64,000 nt of DNA from Saprospiraceae bacterium (GTDB lineage: Bacteria > Bacteroidota > Bacteroidia > Chitinophagales > Saprospiraceae). Position numbers and translations under genes: made by a program. The stretch is from positions 1-64,000 of the forward strand of contig JAJCYI010000215.1 of the NCBI GenBank assembly GCA_029263015.1. The letters are read 5' to 3'. Every line of letters starts with the position of its first letter. Within the stretch, counting starts at the first letter, position 1. Positions 6,835-58,083 of this stretch are shown here, in pieces. Below the pieces are notes generated by a model that made no database searches, was not told where the DNA came from, and worked only from the letters and a program-made list of their open reading frames with translations.

Positions 6835-7158
6835 TGTGTAACACTTGAACTTTTCTAAAGAAATATTAAAAATAGTAGCATAAAAATAAAGCGATTTTTC
6901 ATCCAGATACCTCATGTTCAGTATAACCTCTTTTACTTTATCCTCGCCATAAATTTTCCGAATGAGCAACCAGTCTTCGAGGCTTCCAAGGGAAGCCACC
7001 CGTTCAATAATATAATGGCTACTTTTTTCAATCGATAAATTATTTCGGTTCACATCCCAAAAAAGATGCGCTGATAAATCTGATATTTTATAGTCCTTTT
7101 CCATTTTTATAATCATACAAGATAAATCAACAATGGAACAATGGAACAATGAAATCAC
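6808..7158 (-). CDS. DUF6922-like small protein, probable partner of the AbiEii-like gene; C-terminus encoded by the repeat
   Basis: [46 protein letters not shown] is DUF6922-like; the last codons (LRKVKSIT*) lie inside the 108-bp repeat. Confidence 0.6.
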
Positions 7159-9479
7159 TCAAACTCATTTTTCACATCAAACCCCTCCCTCAACAAAACC
7201 TGATCTTTTTTGAATAATTCAATGTCATTAGCCAGCATTTCCCGGATTAGTTGTTTCAATTTATATTTTGGTTGCCAACCCAATTTTTTCCTTGCTTTTT
7301 CAGGATTGCCGATCAGCAGTTCTACTTCTGTTGGGCGGAAATACCGGGGGTCAACCTGTATGACTGTGCTGCCGGTCTGCACAGGATAATCGGGGTGGAA
7401 GGCTCCCACAACAATACCTACTTCATCCACCCCTTCGCCATCGAAGGTGAGTTCAACGCCTATTTCGCTGAATGCCATCCGTACAAATTCCCTGACGGAA
7501 GTGGTGACCCCGGTAGCGATCACAAAATCTTCTGGTTCCTTCTGTTGCAGCATGAGCCACATGGCCTCCACGAAGTCGGCAGCATGGCCCCAATCACGCC
7601 GTGCATCGAGGTTGCCGAGGTAGAGTTTATGTTGGAGGCCCAATGCTATTTTTGCGACGGCACGGGTTATTTTCCTGGTGACAAATGTTTCGCCACGGAG
7701 GGGGCTATTATGAACGTGGCCCTGGCCAATCCCACAATGGAAAGTTCCACTTTCGGTGGTCAAATCATAAAACCAGCCGTCAAAATCCGGCATTTCGATA
7801 ACCTTTTTGACTTCATTTTTAACTTTGGTAAGATGGTGGGAATCGTCTGGGATATATCCATTTTGGACTTTTCTGATGAAGGTGCGGCTGATGCACGATT
7901 CCCTGAAGATTGCCCGTTGGCCAAAGCCCGCTTTCTCCAATTCGAGTACTTGCCCATATTTTTCAAGAGAATTGCGGTGGTTTTGTCCATGTCCGGAATC
8001 GCTCAGAATATTGATCGAATAGTACAGCCGTTCCTTGCCCCATTTTTCAACCGTTTCGACGTTGATGTTATAATCTTGCCCGGTCACGTTTTTTAATAAA
8101 AAGAGCAACCCGGCGGCAAGGGTAGGGGAGTTGGTTTTAAAATTCCGGAACTCGTAACGGGAAGGGTTTGATTTTAACCCGTCTGCATGTTGATAGCCTT
8201 TCAGAAAAGCAGTCTGTATGGGCACTGGTGCGTTCAGGATTTGGGCGGGGACCCGCTTGTTTTTGTACGAATCATAAATGGGAAACTGCCCTATCCACGG
8301 GGTGGCATTGTTCAGCCTCAGTTGCCATATCACGGTTTCCTCATTGAAACCTGATTTGGTCTTCCAGTAATGGACGGTGTTTCGGGGGTTCAGCGACAGC
8401 CATATTTTTTCATACATTTCAAGTTTTGCCCGGTCCTTGGAGGTCAGTTGGAGTTTATGCCCTTTGTTGTACCCGTCGCCTGTGATAAACCCAAGCAACC
8501 TTGCCTCGTCCGGGCTGATGTCAGTGTCGGCAGGCGCAACTTCTGGATATTCAATCAAGTTGACTTTGTCGCCGATGGCAATGTCCCGGAATGCCTTTTC
8601 TTCCCCTCCTTCCATGATGCAGACGTGGCTTCCCGTTGCCACATAAGCAGCATTTTTTGCGATGATAAAACGTGGCTGCTTGTTCTCCTTTTCTATTTGG
8701 TGGGGGTACCCGGAAGCGTATATCACCTTGGTCCAGCCATTGGCATCCCATACGTATAGATCCTCGGAAACACGGGTCTCCTGGTAACAATCCAGGGATT
8801 CGTCTATTGACAGCTTTCCCCTGTTGGTGTGGTTTTTCACAACCTCTGAAACGGGCTTAATATCTATTCGTCCATGCTCGCCTATTTTGAAAAATACAGG
8901 CATGAAACCAGCAACTGTCTCATGGTTGAACAATATGCCGTTGCATGCAAACATATCATAAGCCTCCCGGTAATTCACGGTCATCCAATAGGCATATAAT
9001 TTAGCAACAGCGTAAGGTGAGCGGGGATAAAAAGGAGTCGTTTCGGATTGAGGGACTTCCTGGACCAAGCCGTATAGTTCAGAGGTTGAAGCCTGGTAAA
9101 ACTTGGTTTTTTTCGTCAGGCCCAGCAACCGGATGGCTTCCAAAATGCGGGTCGTTCCCAGTGCATCGGTATTTGCGGTATATTCCGGTGCGTCAAAACT
9201 TACTTTTACATGCGACATGGCACCAAGGTTGTATATTTCGTCAGGTTGAACTTCTTGTATGATGCGGATCAGGTTCGTGGAATCCGTTAGGTCGCCATAA
9301 TGCAAAATAAAATTCCTATTGTCAACATGGGGGTCTTCGTACAAATGATCAATTCGCTGCGTATTAAAACTGGAACTCCGCCGTTTGATACCGTGGACTT
9401 CGTAGCCTTTACTTAAAAGGAGTTCGGAAAGGTAGGCTCCGTCTTGTCCGGTCACGCCTGTTATCAGGGCTTTTTTCAT
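7155..9479 (-). CDS. gmd: GDP-mannose 4,6-dehydratase interrupted by an in-frame intein
   Basis: N-extein [22 protein letters not shown]...GILFNHE; C-extein [18 protein letters not shown]...; 9479 is the native-looking ATG, and the ORF extension to 9521 lies partly in the repeat. Confidence 0.95.
7707..8918 (-). mobile_element. Intein (~404 aa) with LAGLIDADG homing endonuclease motifs, inside gmd
   Basis: Block A-like [26 protein letters not shown]; block B-like [35 protein letters not shown] and [10 protein letters not shown]; block [26 protein letters not shown]. Confidence 0.92.
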
Positions 9480-9502
9480 GATGGATTTAGTTGTGGTTTT
9501 TT

Positions 9503-9610
9503 CTAAGAAAAGTGAAATCAATAACTTAGACCATGTGAAACGAAGATCTGAATAAACTAATAAGTCACGCTTATAGAGTTGGTCTAAGTTATTTATTTTC
9601 TTTTACTAAG
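9503..9610 (-). repeat. 108-bp hairpin (MITE-like) element, copy 2, inverted relative to copy 1
   Basis: ctaagaaaagtgaaatcaataacttagacca...ttggtctaagttatttattttcttttactaag; 105/108 match to the reverse complement of 6727-6834. Confidence 0.93.
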
Positions 9611-41606: not shown

Positions 41607-43409
41607 TTATAATTCCTGCAACTCAACCATGCGTTTAAAAGTAATGGATTCGCTTATAAGTGAATCATAGTCTCCTGTTTCTACAATATTACCTGATCGC
41701 AAAACAAAAATTCTATCAGCGCTTTTGATGGTAGATAAACGATGTGCAACCATAATTAATGTATATCTTCCTTTCAAAGCTTCAATACTTTGTTGAATAG
41801 CTCTTTCTGTTTCTGAATCAAGAGCAGAAGTAGCCTCATCCATAAATAGAATATCAACTTCTTTATATAATTCTCTTGCAATAGAAATACGTTGCCGTTG
41901 GCCACCGCTTAGGTTAATTCCGTTATTGCCGAGCAAAGTATCTTCCTTTTGCTCAAGATCATTAATGAATTCTGTCAAAGACGCTTGTTCTAATACTTTA
42001 TTAAATCGTTTTAAATTTTGGGTGCTTTTATCAGACCAGAAAGAAATATTTTCATATATAGAACCTGTAAATATAACTGGTTCTTGGGTAATGTATCCAA
42101 TTCGTCTTTGGAGCGAACGCATATCTAAGTCAATTGAATCATAGTTGTCTATATAATATTTCCCTTTTTCTATTGGAATAAGCCCTGATAATACGTTTAG
42201 CAATGTTGTTTTGCCGCTCCCGCTTTTACCAACCAGTGCTACAGATTCATTTTTAATTATTTTAAAGCTAATATTATTTAATACAGCACTGTCACTATAG
42301 GTTACCGTTGCTTGTGATAATTCTAATGCATTTTCAAAAGTCTCAATTGATACCTGCCCGTAGTTTTCTTGGTTTTTTCCTATACTGTTCTGAAAATCTC
42401 TCATGTTCTCCATTGAGCCTGACATTGTTAGAAAATAATTCCATTGGGTTTTTACAGCAAGTAACGAGGATAATGCCCTGTAAAAAAAGAGCAGGCTAAC
42501 AAGTATTGAACCTATGTCAGAACCGATCAAGTGTGTTTGGACGAAAACTGCTATGACTACAATCAATATCACAATCGGTTCTCTGACTGCTGTTATAAAA
42601 GAAGATAGTAACCCTAATTTACGATTATTTTTCTCGATGTTATCAATTTGCCCGCCTAATTTTTGTTCAAGGGTTATCACATTTCCTGTCGCCCTCAAAT
42701 ATTTGAAATTGCTTACAAACTGAATTAGTAATCCTTGATATAAATTAGATTCACGTGTTAAACTAGATGACTCACGTTTTGTAACTATATAAATATACTT
42801 GAATAGAATATTTGTGATTAGAGCACCTATAATTACTATAATAGCAAACTTGGCATTAATTAAAAGTGCAAAAGTGATGTACACTATTACCAAAAGAACA
42901 CTCTGAAGGGCAGCTAAGTAATAAGTTAAAGACATTGAAAGCCTTGAGACTTCTCCCCCCATCGTATTTTGTATTCGACCTGCATCACTATTGACGAAAG
43001 TTTTAAAATGAATATTTGCTAAAGAATGAAGCATATTGAGCCTGATTTTACGAATAAAGGCTTGTTGAATCGTAACCCTGTAGTAATTCCCTATGTAAAC
43101 TAGTACCCCTTTAAAAATAAAAAAGAAGCATAAGAAAGAAAGAACCACAATTAGGTTCAATTCTATGCCATATGAATTTAATACTTCAAAGATTATTTTC
43201 ATTTCACCAAGACTATCAGGATTAACACCTTCTGGATTCTCAGCAATCTGAAGTAGTGGCAAAAACATAGCGAGCCCTAGTCCATCGAATACCCCTATCA
43301 ATAAACCAAAGCCCATAATTATAAATAATCCGATCCCTAAGTAACTATAAAAATATCTTGGGTAGAGTAGCAGGCTATCAAAAAAGTTTTTTATGCTCTT
43401 GGATTTCAT
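41607..43409 (-). CDS. ABC transporter, fused permease/ATP-binding (MsbA-like)
   Basis: Walker A GKSGSGKTT; signature LSGGQRQRISIARELYKEVDILFMDEATSALD. Confidence 0.95.
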   Translation of the reverse strand: MKSKSIKNFFDSLLLYPRYFYSYLGIGLFIIMGFGLLIGVFDGLGLAMFLPLLQIAENPEGVNPDSLGEMKIIFEVLNSYGIELNLIVVLSFLCFFFIFKGVLVYIGNYYRVTIQQAFIRKIRLNMLHSLANIHFKTFVNSDAGRIQNTMGGEVSRLSMSLTYYLAALQSVLLVIVYITFALLINAKFAIIVIIGALITNILFKYIYIVTKRESSSLTRESNLYQGLLIQFVSNFKYLRATGNVITLEQKLGGQIDNIEKNNRKLGLLSSFITAVREPIVILIVVIAVFVQTHLIGSDIGSILVSLLFFYRALSSLLAVKTQWNYFLTMSGSMENMRDFQNSIGKNQENYGQVSIETFENALELSQATVTYSDSAVLNNISFKIIKNESVALVGKSGSGKTTLLNVLSGLIPIEKGKYYIDNYDSIDLDMRSLQRRIGYITQEPVIFTGSIYENISFWSDKSTQNLKRFNKVLEQASLTEFINDLEQKEDTLLGNNGINLSGGQRQRISIARELYKEVDILFMDEATSALDSETERAIQQSIEALKGRYTLIMVAHRLSTIKSADRIFVLRSGNIVETGDYDSLISESITFKRMVELQEL

Positions 43410-43474: not shown

Positions 43475-44383
43475 TTAGTTATAAATGTCCAACGAATTAT
43501 CTTTAACAAACATATCTGTCAAAGAATCTATGTCTAAATTGATTATAGGATGATTTTTAAATTTCTTTAGGTCACTAAATAAACGACTGTATGCCAAGTA
43601 CGTATCGGAGACATTCCTTTTTCTGACTTTTTCCCCAACGCTTTGACCAAGTCTATAATCACGAGATTCTAAATTGTTAGGTTTGGAATAAAAATGTTTA
43701 CTAATCCTATATAAATTATTTTCTCTGTCACAGCCTAAATTCCGAGCAAAAGTGTTATCAAAACCGCAGATATAAATTCTTTTGTAGTTAAAAAAAATTG
43801 ATATCGCTAAGGTTTTATACGCAGTCATGTTTAGATATGATCTGGGATAGCAGGGGTTGATGCTATTACTAAGTATATTGGAATCTTGAACGTCATTAAA
43901 TTCGATTAAGGGTAAATTAGTTTGACCCTTAATTTTTTTTATGTTCAAACTAGACGCTAAAATCCCTTTTTTGATGATTGAGTTTGCATTTTTAAACGCA
44001 AGTTTGGTTAGTTTTATATCTAAGTCAAAATGTCTTGGATCACTGAGAACCCAATAGTCAATATCGATATCTTGAGCGAATGCGCTATTGACAAAATAGT
44101 TCAAACAAAAAGTTTCTGCGCCAGTTAATTCACAGTATTCCTTAATCTTAAATGGGTTTAATTTATTGATAGAAGGGCCACCAGATAGGATAAAACATTC
44201 TTTACCAGTTCCTGAATTTTTCAATTTCATCAATTCTCTAAATCTTTGTTTACGCTTATTCCCAAAGGGATCCAATAGTTTGTCCCTATAGTTAACCCTA
44301 ATCCATTTAACAAATTGCTGAAAGTAATGATTAACTACTTCAGAAGGAACAGTCGGGTCAGGACAGGATTTTTCGATTTTCAC
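43475..44383 (-). CDS. DUF115/MptE-like Rossmannoid protein
   Basis: ECFILSGGPSINKLNPFKIKEY; IDYWVLSDPRHF; RIYICGFDNTFA. Confidence 0.5.
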   Translation of the reverse strand: MKIEKSCPDPTVPSEVVNHYFQQFVKWIRVNYRDKLLDPFGNKRKQRFRELMKLKNSGTGKECFILSGGPSINKLNPFKIKEYCELTGAETFCLNYFVNSAFAQDIDIDYWVLSDPRHFDLDIKLTKLAFKNANSIIKKGILASSLNIKKIKGQTNLPLIEFNDVQDSNILSNSINPCYPRSYLNMTAYKTLAISIFFNYKRIYICGFDNTFARNLGCDRENNLYRISKHFYSKPNNLESRDYRLGQSVGEKVRKRNVSDTYLAYSRLFSDLKKFKNHPIINLDIDSLTDMFVKDNSLDIYN

Positions 44384-44470
44384 AAAAGAAATTTTTATAT
44401 TCTTGAAATGAGAATGAGATAGTTAGGGCAAGTGTAAATTCTAAAACACAAAGAGAGATACAAGGATTTA

Positions 44471-45109
44471 TTAATCTGAGAAGGTTGAAATGTATTCGCA
44501 ATTCAGGTTTTTTAAGGCAGAGTTATTATAGCCATAGAAAGTAATTCCATTCACTTTTGCTGCTTCATGATCATTAATTGAATCACCTATTAAGCAAGCC
44601 TCATTCTGAATAATTCTTTCGTTGCTTATCAAATTTTCCACTAAATTGTTTTTAGGAGTAGGCGATCCTGATATCGATGAAAAAAAATTTGAGATTTCTA
44701 AACTAGAACACAAATCTCTTAATTCATTTTGATCAGAACCTGAAACGATGTGCATTTCAAATTTTTTATGATTTTTTTCAATAAACCCTATGCTATCCTT
44801 AATGAGTAAATTCTTATTGGGAAGATGGATATGCATGATCTTTGAAAATTTGTCGGCATGAAATTTTATCAGATCATTTGTAACTTTTTCTTTTCTAATT
44901 ATTTCATAAAAATACCTGAATTTCACATATCGAGAAAGTCCGCCATTTTTTTTATGAAATAAAAGTAATTCATTTATCTGTTTCTTTGGAAAACCTTTTA
45001 AGACTTCAGTAAATCCAAATTCCCTTATTTTATTTGAATCTATTATCACTCCGTCAAAGTCCCATAGAATATATTTTAAACCACTAAACATAACTTGGTG
45101 CCAATCCAT
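44471..45109 (-). CDS. HAD-superfamily phosphatase
   Basis: YILWDFDGVIIDSNKIREFGF; HIVSGSDQ; CLIGDSINDHEAA. Confidence 0.92.
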   Translation of the reverse strand: MDWHQVMFSGLKYILWDFDGVIIDSNKIREFGFTEVLKGFPKKQINELLLFHKKNGGLSRYVKFRYFYEIIRKEKVTNDLIKFHADKFSKIMHIHLPNKNLLIKDSIGFIEKNHKKFEMHIVSGSDQNELRDLCSSLEISNFFSSISGSPTPKNNLVENLISNERIIQNEACLIGDSINDHEAAKVNGITFYGYNNSALKNLNCEYISTFSD

Positions 45110-45809
45110 TGTTAACTAGCCATCTTTCACAGATTTTTATATCTTCCATAGTATGTACATCAAATGCTTCTTCAACAGTGTAATGTTTTACTTTGTCTCC
45201 CATAAAAGACCATGGTGCAAGTCCGGTTTCTCTATTAATTGTGTTCATATTTAGAACCCAAAAGTTGTGACAGAGAAAAAAAGCAATTGGTAAATCTTGT
45301 CTATTAGTGGATACTTTCATATTAGAAAAATCAAAAAACGGAACCAATAAGCCATCTTCACTTAATTGTTTTGCTCTATATGGGTGGTGATCCATTTCTT
45401 TATATACTGGTACAACTGCTGTTAAACTCGAATCTTCCAATATTAATTTAACACAGTCATCGACCCATTCTTTTTTCACCATTACAGTGTTTGCAAGAAG
45501 GACAATCAGTATATCCGGTTTGCATCCAAACTGTGTTGCCATTACTTCCAATGCATGGTCAATAACATCTACATGTTGTGAATCGGGCTTCGCTAATTCC
45601 TCAGGTCTGACAATTTTATTATAACCAAGGCCAGAAGCTGCCTCAAGAATTTTAGGATCATCGCTACTTACAAAAAAAGCGTCAATTAGTTTTGCTTGCT
45701 TTGCCGCAGAAGCTGGGTAATGTAAAAGTGGATTGCCAAATACAGGTAAAATGTTTTTATCTCTTAGAGTATTGTTCCCTCTTCCGGTAAGTAATGCTAC
45801 TACTTTCAT
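45084..45809 (-). CDS. Acylneuraminate cytidylyltransferase-family protein (CMP-sugar synthetase-like)
   Basis: VVALLTGRGNNTLRDKNILPVFGNPLLHYPASAAKQAKLIDAFFVSSDD. Confidence 0.88.
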   Translation of the reverse strand: MKVVALLTGRGNNTLRDKNILPVFGNPLLHYPASAAKQAKLIDAFFVSSDDPKILEAASGLGYNKIVRPEELAKPDSQHVDVIDHALEVMATQFGCKPDILIVLLANTVMVKKEWVDDCVKLILEDSSLTAVVPVYKEMDHHPYRAKQLSEDGLLVPFFDFSNMKVSTNRQDLPIAFFLCHNFWVLNMNTINRETGLAPWSFMGDKVKHYTVEEAFDVHTMEDIKICERWLVNNGLAPSYV

Positions 45810-45816
45810 TTAATTG

Positions 45817-46584
45817 TTATTTTCTGATATTATTTAGTTCTTTCAGTTTGTCTGCAAAGAGAGCTATATCAACTGAATATGCTAGGTAGTTAATGCCTAA
45901 TTTTTTCCATTTAAGAAGGTCATCTGGAGAATCACAAAACGTACCTAAAAGGATATCATGTTCCTTTGCCATTTTTGAGAGATTTTTTATAGTCTCTATG
46001 ATTTTGGGATGATCTATTTGCCCAGGGAATCCAATTGATTGAGATAAATCATAAGGTCCAATAAAAATAATGTCAATTCCTGTGAATTTTATTATTTCTT
46101 CAAAAATGTTAATTCCGTCAACACCTTCTAATTGAACAATGATCAAGTTTGAATTAGCATCTTTAAAATAATTATATTGGTCTTTATGAGCGTATTCAGC
46201 AGCTCTAACAAATCGACATACTCCTCTTGCTCCCTCCGGATGAAATTTGGATCTATTTAAGATTTCTTTAACCTGTTCCACCTTGCTAACAGATGGAATC
46301 TGAATACCATTAGCTCCAAGGTCTAGAGCTTTTCCTATTAAATTGCTATCGTATGAATCTACTCTAACTATGGATAAGAAATCAGAACTCTTACAAGCCA
46401 TCAAATGATGCTTTAGAGTTTCTGTGGTAACAGGACCATGCTCCATATCAATGATAACGAAATCCATTCCCGTATTTGAGGTAGCTTCTATAATACTGCT
46501 GTCAGTAGTTTTAGAGAAATACCCTAATACACCAGAAGTCCTTGCCTTTATTATAAAAGAATTAATTTTTATTGATTGAGTCAT
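45817..46584 (-). CDS. HpcH/HpaI-family aldolase
   Basis: DFVIIDMEHGPVTTETL; LGANGIQIPSVSKVEQV; IIFIGPYDLSQSIGFPGQ. Confidence 0.92.
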   Translation of the reverse strand: MTQSIKINSFIIKARTSGVLGYFSKTTDSSIIEATSNTGMDFVIIDMEHGPVTTETLKHHLMACKSSDFLSIVRVDSYDSNLIGKALDLGANGIQIPSVSKVEQVKEILNRSKFHPEGARGVCRFVRAAEYAHKDQYNYFKDANSNLIIVQLEGVDGINIFEEIIKFTGIDIIFIGPYDLSQSIGFPGQIDHPKIIETIKNLSKMAKEHDILLGTFCDSPDDLLKWKKLGINYLAYSVDIALFADKLKELNNIRK

Positions 46585-48119
46585 TAGATCAAAAATGAAT
46601 ATACTGATCTGGAATCCATTTCATACAATGTTGGAAGAATGCTCATCACATTTAACTTATTTTTTACTGAATTGAAAATCAATTGATTTTCTATGAAAAG
46701 CTCATGTTCTTTGCTTGTAATACTTTCCTTGGGATATCCATCATATCCCACAAGATATACCTGTTCTACCTTTAATTCTAAAGCTGTCTGCAATGCTAAT
46801 ATGGTATGAGTATCATTTAAAGGGTAGTCAATAACAGATTTAGTTAATTCATAAGTGGAATTGACAACAGCTGAAGGAATGTATGTACCCATCTTTCGGG
46901 GGAATGGAGGAAGTATACATGTATGCCTAAAATTTTTAGCTGAATTAAAAACTTTTTCTAGTCTGTAACCTTCACTACCTACAAGACAAAAATAATGATC
47001 AATATTATTAATATCACTATAACTTGCTGAATTTTTTGAACTGGCATGGATGATACAAAGATTCGTTCCAAATTTATTCGTAAATTCTTTTATGGCTTCA
47101 TGATGGTTCAATGCGCTTGGTCCTCCTCCAATTATTATGGCATTTTTATAATATTTCTGAGGTGAAAAAAATCTTAATTCCTGATTATCTTTTTTGCCTT
47201 CTTTTTTGTTTTGCAATGCCCTTATTATAGAATTAAATGAAAAATATCTTTTTGAAATCCATTCCATTACATCTTTTTGAGGGAGTGAGTTGCCTCCTGA
47301 TACCATGTAAGGCAGATTAGTACCCCATTTAAAATCTTTTTGTAAATCTTCAAATTGATCGACGACTTCACTCAAAGCGTTAAAGTTTACACGTAATTCA
47401 TTTTTAACATTTAATGCAGTTAATAACAATTCTGTTTTCAGATTACCAGCTCCTCTACCCATTCCTGTTATGGTAGCATCAATTATTTCGGCACCACATT
47501 CAAGAGCAGTAAAAGAATTGATCAAGGCCAATTCCATGTTGTTATGTCCATGAAATCCAATTTTTACATTACTTCTTGAGCGAACTAAATCATAACTTTC
47601 TCTTACGTCATTAGGGAACACGCTGCCATATGAATCAACCATATAAAAATAATCAGCAAGTCCATTTACAAAGCCTATATTTTGAATAAAACTTGATTGA
47701 TGTTTCCAGTTGGACATGTACATTACATTAAATCCAACTTCAAACCCCATGGTTTTTATTTTTTCAGCCAGTTTTAAAGACCTGTCAAAATTTATAGGAT
47801 TAACTGCAATTCTGACCATATCTATCAACCCAATACATGCTTCTAACAACTGTTTTGCTTCATTGGGATTAACATCCTTTTCATTAAGCATTATTGCAAG
47901 CTTTGATTTGGATTTATCCTTTACCTTTTTCATTAAGGATTCTGGGCAATAAAAATAAGCTCCCAGATATTCATCCTTAGGGTTACTCCTATATCCTATT
48001 TCCAAATAATTTACAGGAAGGGAATTAACAGAATTGAAGTATACCTCAGTTAATTCTTCACTAAAATCCCAGTTGGTATAGTAACCACCATCTCTTAAAG
48101 TGCAATCTAATATTTTCAT
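46584..48119 (-). CDS. HMGL-like (DRE-TIM) aldolase fused to a DUF115/MptE-like C-terminal domain
   Basis: MKILDCTLRDGGYYTNWDF; IGFHGHNNMELALINSF; C-terminal NAIIIGGGPSALNHHEAI ... VEQVYLVGYDGYPKE. Confidence 0.85.
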   Translation of the reverse strand: MKILDCTLRDGGYYTNWDFSEELTEVYFNSVNSLPVNYLEIGYRSNPKDEYLGAYFYCPESLMKKVKDKSKSKLAIMLNEKDVNPNEAKQLLEACIGLIDMVRIAVNPINFDRSLKLAEKIKTMGFEVGFNVMYMSNWKHQSSFIQNIGFVNGLADYFYMVDSYGSVFPNDVRESYDLVRSRSNVKIGFHGHNNMELALINSFTALECGAEIIDATITGMGRGAGNLKTELLLTALNVKNELRVNFNALSEVVDQFEDLQKDFKWGTNLPYMVSGGNSLPQKDVMEWISKRYFSFNSIIRALQNKKEGKKDNQELRFFSPQKYYKNAIIIGGGPSALNHHEAIKEFTNKFGTNLCIIHASSKNSASYSDINNIDHYFCLVGSEGYRLEKVFNSAKNFRHTCILPPFPRKMGTYIPSAVVNSTYELTKSVIDYPLNDTHTILALQTALELKVEQVYLVGYDGYPKESITSKEHELFIENQLIFNSVKNKLNVMSILPTLYEMDSRSVYSFLI

Positions 48120-49042
48120 AAGTGATTTCCTTTCGCCCAGTTAATCATATCTAACATACCCTTTTTGAAAGTTATTTGATTGCTAAACCCGTAACTGCTT
48201 TCGAAGAAGGAAGGATCGCCATATATGCCAAACTGATCACCAGGAGTGGATCCAGCAAAACTGATTTCAATGGGATTTTCCATTTCAGAGGATATTAATT
48301 CAAGGATATCTTTTACGTAAATCCTATTTCCTGAACAAACATTGTATACACCTGATTCTATATGTTCATTTTTTGATTTCAAAAAGGCATCAACAACATC
48401 ATTTATATGGATAAAATCTCTGAATCGTTCAGGAGACCCTTTAACAAGAATCTTATTAGTTTGTATAGCTTGTGACAGATAAATACTGGCCATTCCTTGC
48501 CTAAGATTTGATAAATTCTGTCCTGCCCCGTATACATTAAATAATCTCAATGCCACCGTTTTAATACCAAAAGTTCTGTAAATTCTTAAATAATTTTCAC
48601 TTGCATGTTTTCCTACTGCATAAAACGATTTTGGTTCAGGAGTATCGGTCTCTTTAACAGGCAGAGATTTGGGATCTCCATAAACTGACATAGAAGAAGC
48701 ATATATCAGTATAGGACAAGAATGATCAACGGCATATTTTAAAAGCACTAAAGTGGATTGCACATTAGCTTGCATATCCAAAACAGGATTATCATAACTA
48801 ACTTCTCCTGAGCTTTGTCCAGCAATATGATATATTACATCAAATCTTCTTCTATTTAATTGTTTGATAGTTGATTGGTCTTCACAATTTCCCTCAATGA
48901 ATTCAGCTCCATCAGGAATGTTCTCCAAAAAACCGGTACTTAGATTATCTATTACTGTTACTTTTTTACCCAAGTCAACAAGTGTTTTTGCTAGTTTAGA
49001 TCCAATAAAACCGGCTCCTCCTGTAATCAAATAGTTTTGCAT
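48116..49042 (-). CDS. NAD-dependent epimerase/dehydratase
   Basis: NYLITGGAGFIGSKLAKTL; YASSMSVYGDP; SFYAVGKHASENYL. Confidence 0.92.
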   Translation of the reverse strand: MQNYLITGGAGFIGSKLAKTLVDLGKKVTVIDNLSTGFLENIPDGAEFIEGNCEDQSTIKQLNRRRFDVIYHIAGQSSGEVSYDNPVLDMQANVQSTLVLLKYAVDHSCPILIYASSMSVYGDPKSLPVKETDTPEPKSFYAVGKHASENYLRIYRTFGIKTVALRLFNVYGAGQNLSNLRQGMASIYLSQAIQTNKILVKGSPERFRDFIHINDVVDAFLKSKNEHIESGVYNVCSGNRIYVKDILELISSEMENPIEISFAGSTPGDQFGIYGDPSFFESSYGFSNQITFKKGMLDMINWAKGNHL

Positions 49043-56765: not shown

Positions 56766-57416
56766 TTAATGAATACGAATTAAGTTCTCTTCTTTCAATT
56801 TATAAACAGATCCGCTGCACGGACATGTCGCTTCCCCTTTGTCATCAAAATGCAACCGCTCACCATGTTCACTCATCCATCCAATTCGCCTTCCAGGATT
56901 ACCCACGATTAATGCATAATCTTTCACCCCTTTTGTTATTACTGTCCCTGCACCGATAAAGGCATATTTTCCGATTGGGTTGCCGCAAACAATAGTAGCG
57001 TTTGCCCCGATGGTAGCGCCTTTACCGACCACCGTTTTCATATATTCCCCTTTTCTGTTTACCGCACTGCGGGGGTTATATACATTTGTAAATACCATGC
57101 TCGGGCCGAGGAAAACATCGTCCTCGCATTCCACCCCTTCATATATGGAGACGTTGTTTTGCACTTTTACATTGTTGCCCAAAATGACGCCGTTGGCAAC
57201 ATATACATTTTGGCCAAGGTTGCAGTTTTTGCCGATAATAGCGCCGGGCATGATATGGGAGAAGTGCCATATTTTAGAGCCTGTGCCGATTTTGGCGCCG
57301 TCGTCAATGATTGCGGTGGAGTGGGAGAAGTATGAAGTCTGTTTGGCGATGGTTTGAAAATATAGGTGGACTGAAAAAGGAAGGGCCTTATTTTTTCTTT
57401 TTTTGAATAGCTTCAA
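56766..57416 (-). CDS. Left-handed beta-helix acyltransferase (WbpD-like)
   Basis: Hexapeptide repeats [72 protein letters not shown]. Confidence 0.93.
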
Positions 57417-58083
57417 AGTTGACTATACGCATGTTGTCGTCCCCCAAAATCAGTGCGTAAATATTCATACGGGTCAATTTTTTCAAAATATTGTCGGGGA
57501 TGGACATACTGGCAAAAATGGATACCAGTTCTTTATTTGAATATTCCGGAAATACTGCCAAGAAATTTTCTTTTACTTTTGGCAGCTTATTGACGTAATC
57601 CATCCTTGCTGTAAACTTGGCCTCCATTAGGAACACTTTGTTTTCCGTCTCTACAATGCCATCAAATTCATATTCGTCGCCTTTTTTCAGAACGTTCCGT
57701 TTGCGGACGTTCGGCATGATGGTGAGTATCTCAGTTTCCCCAAAAAGCTCTTTGGCTATCCTTGGAATATTAGGAAGGGAAATATCCTCGGCGAAAGAAC
57801 CGAGCTTGTGAGCCAATTCTGCCCATTGCCTTTTCATCGTTTTAGTGTCAGTACGAACTTCGTCCTTGAAGTCCCCCATCTCATCCTTGAACTCCCTCAT
57901 TTCGTTTTTGAACTCCCTCATCTCGTCCTTGAACTCCCTCATCTCGTCCTTGAACTCCTTCATCTCCCTACTGAGGTTTTCTATACTTTTCTCCATACGG
58001 TACAAAGATTTGTCCGTATGGATGATAAACCTATTCAGGGTATCTTCTAGGAAACTTACTTTTTCTCCAATTGGTTCTACCAT
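57388..58083 (-). CDS. Coiled-coil plus PD-(D/E)XK nuclease-like protein
   Basis: N-terminal EFKDEMR heptad repeats; [22 protein letters not shown] matches the D...ExK nuclease-fold pattern. Confidence 0.65.
57865..57969 (-). repeat. 21-bp tandem repeat (~5 units) encoding a coiled coil
   Basis: cttgaactccctcatctcgtc units, encoding (D/N)EMREFK. Confidence 0.93.

Follow-up and report, generated by a model that had tools for sequence, protein, structure and literature searches.

The window considered here, the first 64,000 nucleotides of contig JAJCYI010000215.1 from a Saprospiraceae bacterium (assembly GCA_029263015.1), carries a large exopolysaccharide locus. Set within it are six contiguous open genes, all on the minus strand and running in the same direction (Table 1). 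In order of transcription they encode a short-chain dehydrogenase/reductase (SDR) of the epimerase type, an HMGL-type aldolase fused to a DUF115-like domain, an HpcH/HpaI aldolase, a NeuA/PseF-like cytidylyltransferase (CT), a class IA HAD phosphatase and a standalone DUF115-like protein. The sequence-only reading of this DNA had assigned the six genes to these families and proposed that they form a pathway, independent of NeuB and KdsA, for an ulosonic-acid-like sugar activated with cytidine monophosphate (CMP). The family assignments were confirmed by Pfam and NCBIfam and, for DUF115, by profile and fold comparison. In the Pfam and NCBIfam scan of the window, none of the cassette proteins reached the equivalog cut-off of any characterised enzyme, and promoter and terminator scans gave no excess over shuffled sequences.

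Table 1. Genes and domains of the cassette and its downstream neighbour (window coordinates)
Feature	Position	Strand	Evidence and remarks
NAD-dependent epimerase/dehydratase (SDR)	48116..49042	-	Pfam Epimerase E 5.1e-48; optional cassette member
HMGL/DRE-TIM aldolase with C-terminal DUF115-like domain	46584..48119	-	511 codons, no stop; Pfam HMGL-like 4.5e-19; cassette core enzyme
DUF115-like domain of the fusion (residues 306-510)	46587..47204	-	AlphaFold2 (AF2) model, Foldseek, hhalign
HpcH/HpaI class II pyruvate aldolase	45817..46584	-	Pfam 3.6e-31; optional member
Cytidylyltransferase (CT), NeuA/PseF-like, subtype T1 (TGRGNN motif)	45084..45809	-	CTP_transf_3 6.7e-10; PseF 6e-22, below cut-off
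HAD-IA phosphatase	44471..45109	-	HAD_2 7.1e-16; core member; true start may be internal Met7
Standalone DUF115/MptE/GT42-like protein, candidate CMP-ulosonate transferase	43475..44383	-	Fold comparison; GPS[LI] and HF motifs
ABC exporter (MsbA/PglK-like)	41607..43409	-	ABC_tran 1.3e-30; directly downstream neighbour, not core

The aldolase–DUF115 fusion occurs widely. When one genome per species was scanned, 80 full-length fusions turned up, sharing 45-75% identity with that of the window; adding the window itself and one further genome brings the total to 82 distinct loci. The hosts are mainly Bacteroidota, among them Pedobacter, Sphingobacterium, Flavobacterium, Dysgonomonas and Phocaeicola; Akkermansiaceae, Balneola/Rhodohalobacter and Desulfocapsa each contribute a single case. 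Since homologues of the same length occur at the 81 other loci, the fusion is no artefact. Its presence in only four of 395 sampled genomes of the class is as expected of a variable polysaccharide cassette.

The aldolase domain is matched by PDB entry 3DXI (‘putative aldolase’; E 2.3e-116), which over 309 residues has the same sequence as the N-terminal domain of the Phocaeicola vulgatus ATCC 8482 fusion. Residues R9, D10, H190 and H192 are at least 95% conserved in the aldolase family and, aligned with 4lrs, correspond, as judged from the alignment, to the Arg that binds the enolate and to the metal ligands in aldolases of the DmpG type. The domain scores 90.1 bits against NCBIfam TIGR03217, under the 286-bit cut-off. 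Aldol addition of pyruvate by HMGL/DmpG-type enzymes gives a 4-hydroxy-2-oxo acid, the chemical class of the 3-deoxy-2-ulosonic acids. A catabolic role was considered and rejected: dmpG clusters, the nearest catabolic relatives, carry aldehyde dehydrogenase and tautomerase genes, and the cassette has neither.

A survey of the neighbourhood of the fusion, as the sequence-only reading had advised, shows that fusion and CT, usually joined by the HAD phosphatase, form a conserved unit. The three genes downstream of the fusion include a same-strand CT in 79 of the 81 loci that have downstream genes, against 37 of 643 cases (5.8%) when the count starts from non-cassette genes of these loci; the loci were picked by fusion similarity and are mutually related, so that the counts are not independent. 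At the two exceptions, L113 and L120, the CT is directly upstream. The median gap from the fusion to the next gene is 1 bp, a HAD gene is near the fusion in 63 of 82 loci, and the fusion–CT unit holds down to 45% identity. Pairwise distances between the aldolases correlate with those between the fused DUF115 domains (Spearman 0.52), the largest group of KdsB-like CTs (type A, or KdsB-A, described below; 0.50) and the HADs (0.35), each with 0 of 500 permutations, and show no correlation with those of a nearby glycosyltransferase family (0.085). Unfused relatives of the aldolase (Mesorhizobium, Paraburkholderia, Priestia and locus L033) have no CT nearby; the link to the CT is therefore particular to the fusion, with its counterparts in phages and Leisingera, and is not a property of the whole aldolase family.

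These counterparts tie aldolase to CT in a different way. Ten viral contigs from marine phage (L039-L048) encode the aldolase domain and a KdsB-like CT as one protein, the two being joined directly, an arrangement confirmed for two of the proteins by Pfam and for one by NCBIfam; exonuclease-like and glycosyltransferase genes lie near it, and the fusion protein has no PHROG match. Another viral contig, L038, carries the DUF115-type fusion together with two CTs, one KdsB-like and one NeuA-like, and a sialyltransferase-like protein of family GT29. On a Leisingera plasmid the fusion, a KdsB-like CT and a HAD follow one another consecutively. The viral contigs and the plasmid assign the two enzymes to a single pathway on evidence that does not depend on synteny within the Bacteroidota.

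The CT itself is of two unlike kinds, NeuA-like at 51 distinct loci and KdsB-like at 30. On a quick tree of the aldolases the CT type switches about 19 times, and at least six times when only well-supported branches are counted. This repeated swapping of unlike CTs beside an unchanged aldolase suggests that they activate the same or a similar product. The window CT passes the CTP_transf_3 cut-off, which would place it in the CMP-sugar cytidylyltransferase family, and it matches the CMP-Neu5Ac synthetase 6ifd (E 4.5e-19). Two subtypes, T1 and T2, are separated by motif; the window CT is T1, a subtype present at six loci, all six with an HpcH/HpaI gene. Among the KdsB-like CTs a large group, type A, can be told from a small one, type B. 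Those of type A from Bacteroidota, Leisingera and phages form one clade apart from six comparison enzymes, namely the housekeeping KdsB of four genomes, Vibrio KdsB (3oam) and KpsU (1gq9) (SH-aLRT 95, quick tree). His172, Gly174 and Val140 (KpsU chain numbering), shared by the whole comparison set of six, are replaced by Gln, Cys and Pro, respectively, in 32 of 32 type A CTs. As far as can be judged from these substitutions, they argue against plain 3-deoxy-D-manno-octulosonic acid (KDO) as the substrate.

DUF115 identity of both proteins is supported by profile and fold comparison. The Pfam MptE-like/DUF115 model (PF01973) gives 21.2 and 21.7 bits (E 2e-4 and 2.8e-4), under its gathering score of 34.6. 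For the standalone protein, Foldseek matches in the PDB at E<1e-3 are SteA, M. jannaschii MptE/HPPK (8sd5), the sialyltransferase CstII (1ro8) and the Maf glycosyltransferase (5mu5), pointing to the MptE/Maf/CstII fold; the model is of moderate confidence (predicted local distance difference test, pLDDT, 75) and the template modelling (TM) scores of the matches are low, 0.32-0.38 overall and 0.32-0.36 on the query for 8sd5, 5mu5 and 1ro8. A close homologue of this protein occurs at L049 only. The fused domain has a pLDDT of 94.3 in AF2. Its Foldseek matches are viral MptE-like or uncharacterised proteins (E down to 1.5e-5), and hhalign against the DUF115 set gives a probability of 85 (E 5.8e-6). 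Compared with CstII it reaches a TMq of 0.50 (probability 0.98, E 0.018), the best PDB matches being not significant by E, and a sequence search of its profile against the PDB gave no match. It may serve in binding or transfer of the product, or in regulation.

Elsewhere, other transferase families accompany the fusion. Polysialyltransferase-like genes (polyST, PF07388) number 12 in 11 loci, and GT29 sialyltransferase-like genes 14 in 13 loci. GT29 and polysialyltransferases use CMP-sugars, and CstII and Maf transfer CMP-activated nonulosonates. For Maf, such transfer is described in the literature (PMC13317340). The 14 GT29-like genes (for example L062:12844-13581) lie in Bacteroidota polysaccharide loci. 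The family is best known from animals.

The remaining genes of the cassette differ in constancy. The HAD has conserved DxD, SGS, K and GDSxND motifs, and its orthologues, 51-53% identical, sit after the CT in relatives; as a class IA enzyme it scores only 22-24 bits against the models for KdsC and for the phosphatase of 2-keto-3-deoxynononic acid (KDN) 9-phosphate (cut-offs 107 and 180). The HpcH/HpaI gene lies between fusion and CT at 11 of 82 loci, always with a NeuA-like CT (11 of 51 such loci against none of the 30 with a KdsB-like CT; Fisher p 0.006, the loci being related). Its product scores 108.6 bits against a Pfam cut-off of 25 and 132-133 bits against the GarL and HpaI equivalogs, whose cut-offs are 369-407; in alignment with YfaU the EHG His, the VRV Arg and the Glu and Asp positions correspond, so the active-site residues are intact. 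The sequence-only reading had allowed that either aldolase might form the carbon–carbon bond. Because HpcH/HpaI occurs at so few loci, the HMGL aldolase can be taken as the core enzyme, and HpcH/HpaI drops to an optional partner. The epimerase, too, had been counted as a cassette gene; it is a recurrent partner, optional and variable in position. Homologues 50-69% identical are found at L049-L051 (position -1), L064 (+2), L079 (+1), L092 (+3) and L084 (+10), and such shifting of position within cassettes links the function of the SDR to them. At six loci (L093, L106, L107, L113, L120 and L128) a PfkB gene resembling 2-keto-3-deoxygluconate (KDG) kinase stands beside the fusion, and none of the six has a HAD (p 8e-5, related loci), which fits a 2-keto-3-deoxy acid intermediate. 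The pairing of HpcH/HpaI with T1 and the alternation of PfkB with HAD may mark product variants.

CMP-activated ulosonic acids such as the sialic acids, KDO, pseudaminic acid and legionaminic acid are found on the surfaces of many microbes, and to our knowledge their synthesis is generally tied to NeuB or KdsA. A homologue of either just outside the window, which the sequence-only reading had named as the observation that would undo its proposal, is not there. No NeuB gene lies on the 75.8-kb contig of the window (C215); the one true NeuB of the genome is on contig C32, where its neighbours are a probable CT and a KDN-9-phosphatase that scores 257 bits against a cut-off of 180. That separate KDN-type cluster (L035, G000:C32:25000-40204) also holds a sugar methyltransferase. 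A weak second NeuB-family match, on C114, was rejected as 3-deoxy-D-arabino-heptulosonate 7-phosphate (DAHP) synthase. Genes of the DAHP/KDO8P-synthase family (PF00793) are on C114, C214 and C14 only, with none on C215, and the housekeeping KdsB is on C138.

The neighbourhood survey, the phage fusion and the sialyltransferase-like neighbours all support the proposed pathway, and we consider it likely that the genes form a polysaccharide-locus cassette which, needing neither NeuB nor KdsA, makes and uses a 2-keto-3-deoxy (ulosonic) acid in CMP-activated form. We infer the reactions, their order, the acceptor and the product from the chemistry of the aldolase family together with the HAD and CT. 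The HMGL-type aldolase domain would join the enolate of pyruvate, or of a similar 2-oxo acid, to an aldose, probably a phosphorylated one, to give a 4-hydroxy-2-oxo acid, that is, a 3-deoxy-ulosonate phosphate. The HAD-IA phosphatase would strip off the phosphate, and the CT would use cytidine triphosphate (CTP) to act on the anomeric C2 hydroxyl, yielding the CMP-ulosonate. A sialyltransferase-like protein would then move the ulosonate into exopolysaccharide, this being the standalone DUF115 protein here and a GT29-like or polysialyltransferase-like protein elsewhere. The optional SDR epimerase and HpcH/HpaI aldolase would probably alter which acceptor is used or the stereochemistry of the product. 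The wider proposition, that this is a new general route in which an HMGL aldolase builds a 3-deoxy-2-ulosonic acid undescribed from these organisms, carried as an interchangeable cassette across Bacteroidota, some other bacteria and marine phages, is more tentative, and we would rate it slightly short of an even chance. Such an acid could possibly be of C6 to C8, made from pyruvate and a common aldose phosphate. No description of the cassette or pathway was found in the open-access literature, a search with few terms that is weak evidence of novelty.

Several observations sit awkwardly with this pathway. In the RDGGY motif of the aldolase, a conserved Tyr13 occupies the position of the His that follows RDGx, which we take to be the catalytic residue in DmpG, so that something other than a simple aldol of pyruvate could take place. 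The window CT has His in place of the second Asp of the D-x-D motif and gives 78.4 bits against the PseF model TIGR03584, far under the cut-off of 205.7. Aldolase distances do not correlate with those of the T2 CTs (Spearman 0.067, 110 of 500 permutations). The His-Phe motif conserved in most standalone homologues is missing from the fused DUF115 domain, and the role of HpcH/HpaI is left unexplained by the model. Among the surveyed loci no isomerase or other gene for making the acceptor recurred conspicuously, for which reason a common aldose phosphate is guessed as the acceptor.

Other explanations can be offered for the same genes. The cassette might supply ordinary KDO for a capsule, with the HMGL aldolase in place of KdsA, the HAD in place of KdsC and the CT as an extra KdsB, like KpsU in the capsule clusters of E. 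coli. Three cassette KdsB-like CTs of relatives do score 284-291 bits against NF009905, the KDO cytidylyltransferase subfamily, above its cut-off of 255. However, the genomes already have a separate housekeeping KdsB, that of the window also has a KdsA-type synthase-family gene, every KdsB-A CT has Gln and Cys in place of His172 and Gly174, and NeuA-like CTs substitute for KdsB-like ones beside the aldolase; capsule KDO thus seems unlikely. Slightly less likely still is an accessory role for the aldolase in a conventional NeuB nonulosonate pathway, where it would form, for example, a side chain while the CT activated the NeuB product. NeuB-family genes do occur at 24 surveyed loci and in the genome of the window, but at most cassette loci no such gene lies closer than about 10 kb, the annotation of 31.6 kb around the Leisingera cassette includes none, and the NeuB of the window genome has its own phosphatase and probable CT on another contig. 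The phage aldolase–CT fusion, moreover, ties the aldolase directly to the CT.

The divergence of the T1 and T2 CTs leaves room for a CT whose substrate is not a sugar but a 2-hydroxy or 2-oxo acid, or else a phosphonate, to give a CMP- or CDP- (cytidine diphosphate-) linked decoration. This seems improbable, since both the KdsB-like and the NeuA/PseF-like CTs come from families that activate 2-ulosonic acids and sialyltransferase-like genes are frequent neighbours. Least probable of all is that HpcH/HpaI is the synthase and the HMGL enzyme performs another step: the gene directly precedes the CT in the window and its active site appears complete, yet it is absent from 71 of the 82 loci, which keep fusion and CT, and from the examined phage and Leisingera loci.

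If a NeuB/KdsA-independent cassette of this kind is indeed at work, it would amount to a second, aldolase-based route, and surveys that use NeuB and KdsA as markers would overlook one group of acid sugars. 3DXI, a solved structure from a human gut commensal, would acquire a function, and there would be a defined set of cultured organisms in which to seek a new sugar. The phage proteins, with aldolase and activating enzyme in one chain, would be handy for assay.

On the 3' side of the cassette are the ABC exporter, homologues of which occur at 16 of the surveyed loci, and a protein bearing a pyruvyl-transferase domain. The G+C content is about 31-40% across positions 30000-52000 of the window, which hold glycosyltransferases and the cassette, and 36-46% beyond 52000, as if the low-G+C variable part had been separately acquired. 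Further away, a gene for GDP-mannose 4,6-dehydratase (7155-9521, minus strand) has a 404-residue in-frame insert at 7707-8918 that ends in HVHN before a Ser and has a LAGLIDADG-like match (Pfam 2.9e-6); its first residue, Thr, is unusual, and by these features the insert looks like an intein. A protein with tandem repeats is encoded at 57388-58083 (minus strand).

Compared with the known CMP-nonulosonate and CMP-KDO pathways, in which NeuB or KdsA is followed by a phosphatase and by NeuA, PseF or KdsB, the cassette shares the CT family, a HAD, sialyltransferase-like neighbours and a setting in polysaccharide loci. It differs in having an HMGL-type aldolase in place of the synthase, a class IA HAD instead of one of the KdsC or KDN-9-phosphatase type, and KdsB-A CTs that form their own clade. 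The aldolase resembles DmpG/BphI, the 4-hydroxy-2-oxovalerate aldolases, in its HMGL TIM barrel, metal ligands and enolate Arg, and departs from them in the Tyr at the catalytic His, the lack of an acylating aldehyde dehydrogenase partner and the polysaccharide-locus setting; 3DXI, which has no assigned function, corresponds to its N-terminal aldolase domain only, without DUF115. The window HpcH/HpaI protein retains the active-site residues of HpaI, GarL and YfaU, whereas it falls below every equivalog cut-off and belongs to a biosynthetic cassette. The standalone DUF115 protein has the fold of the Maf, MptE and CstII (DUF115/GT42-like) proteins, with a sequence under the Pfam gathering score and a fused counterpart that does without the His-Phe conserved in standalone homologues.

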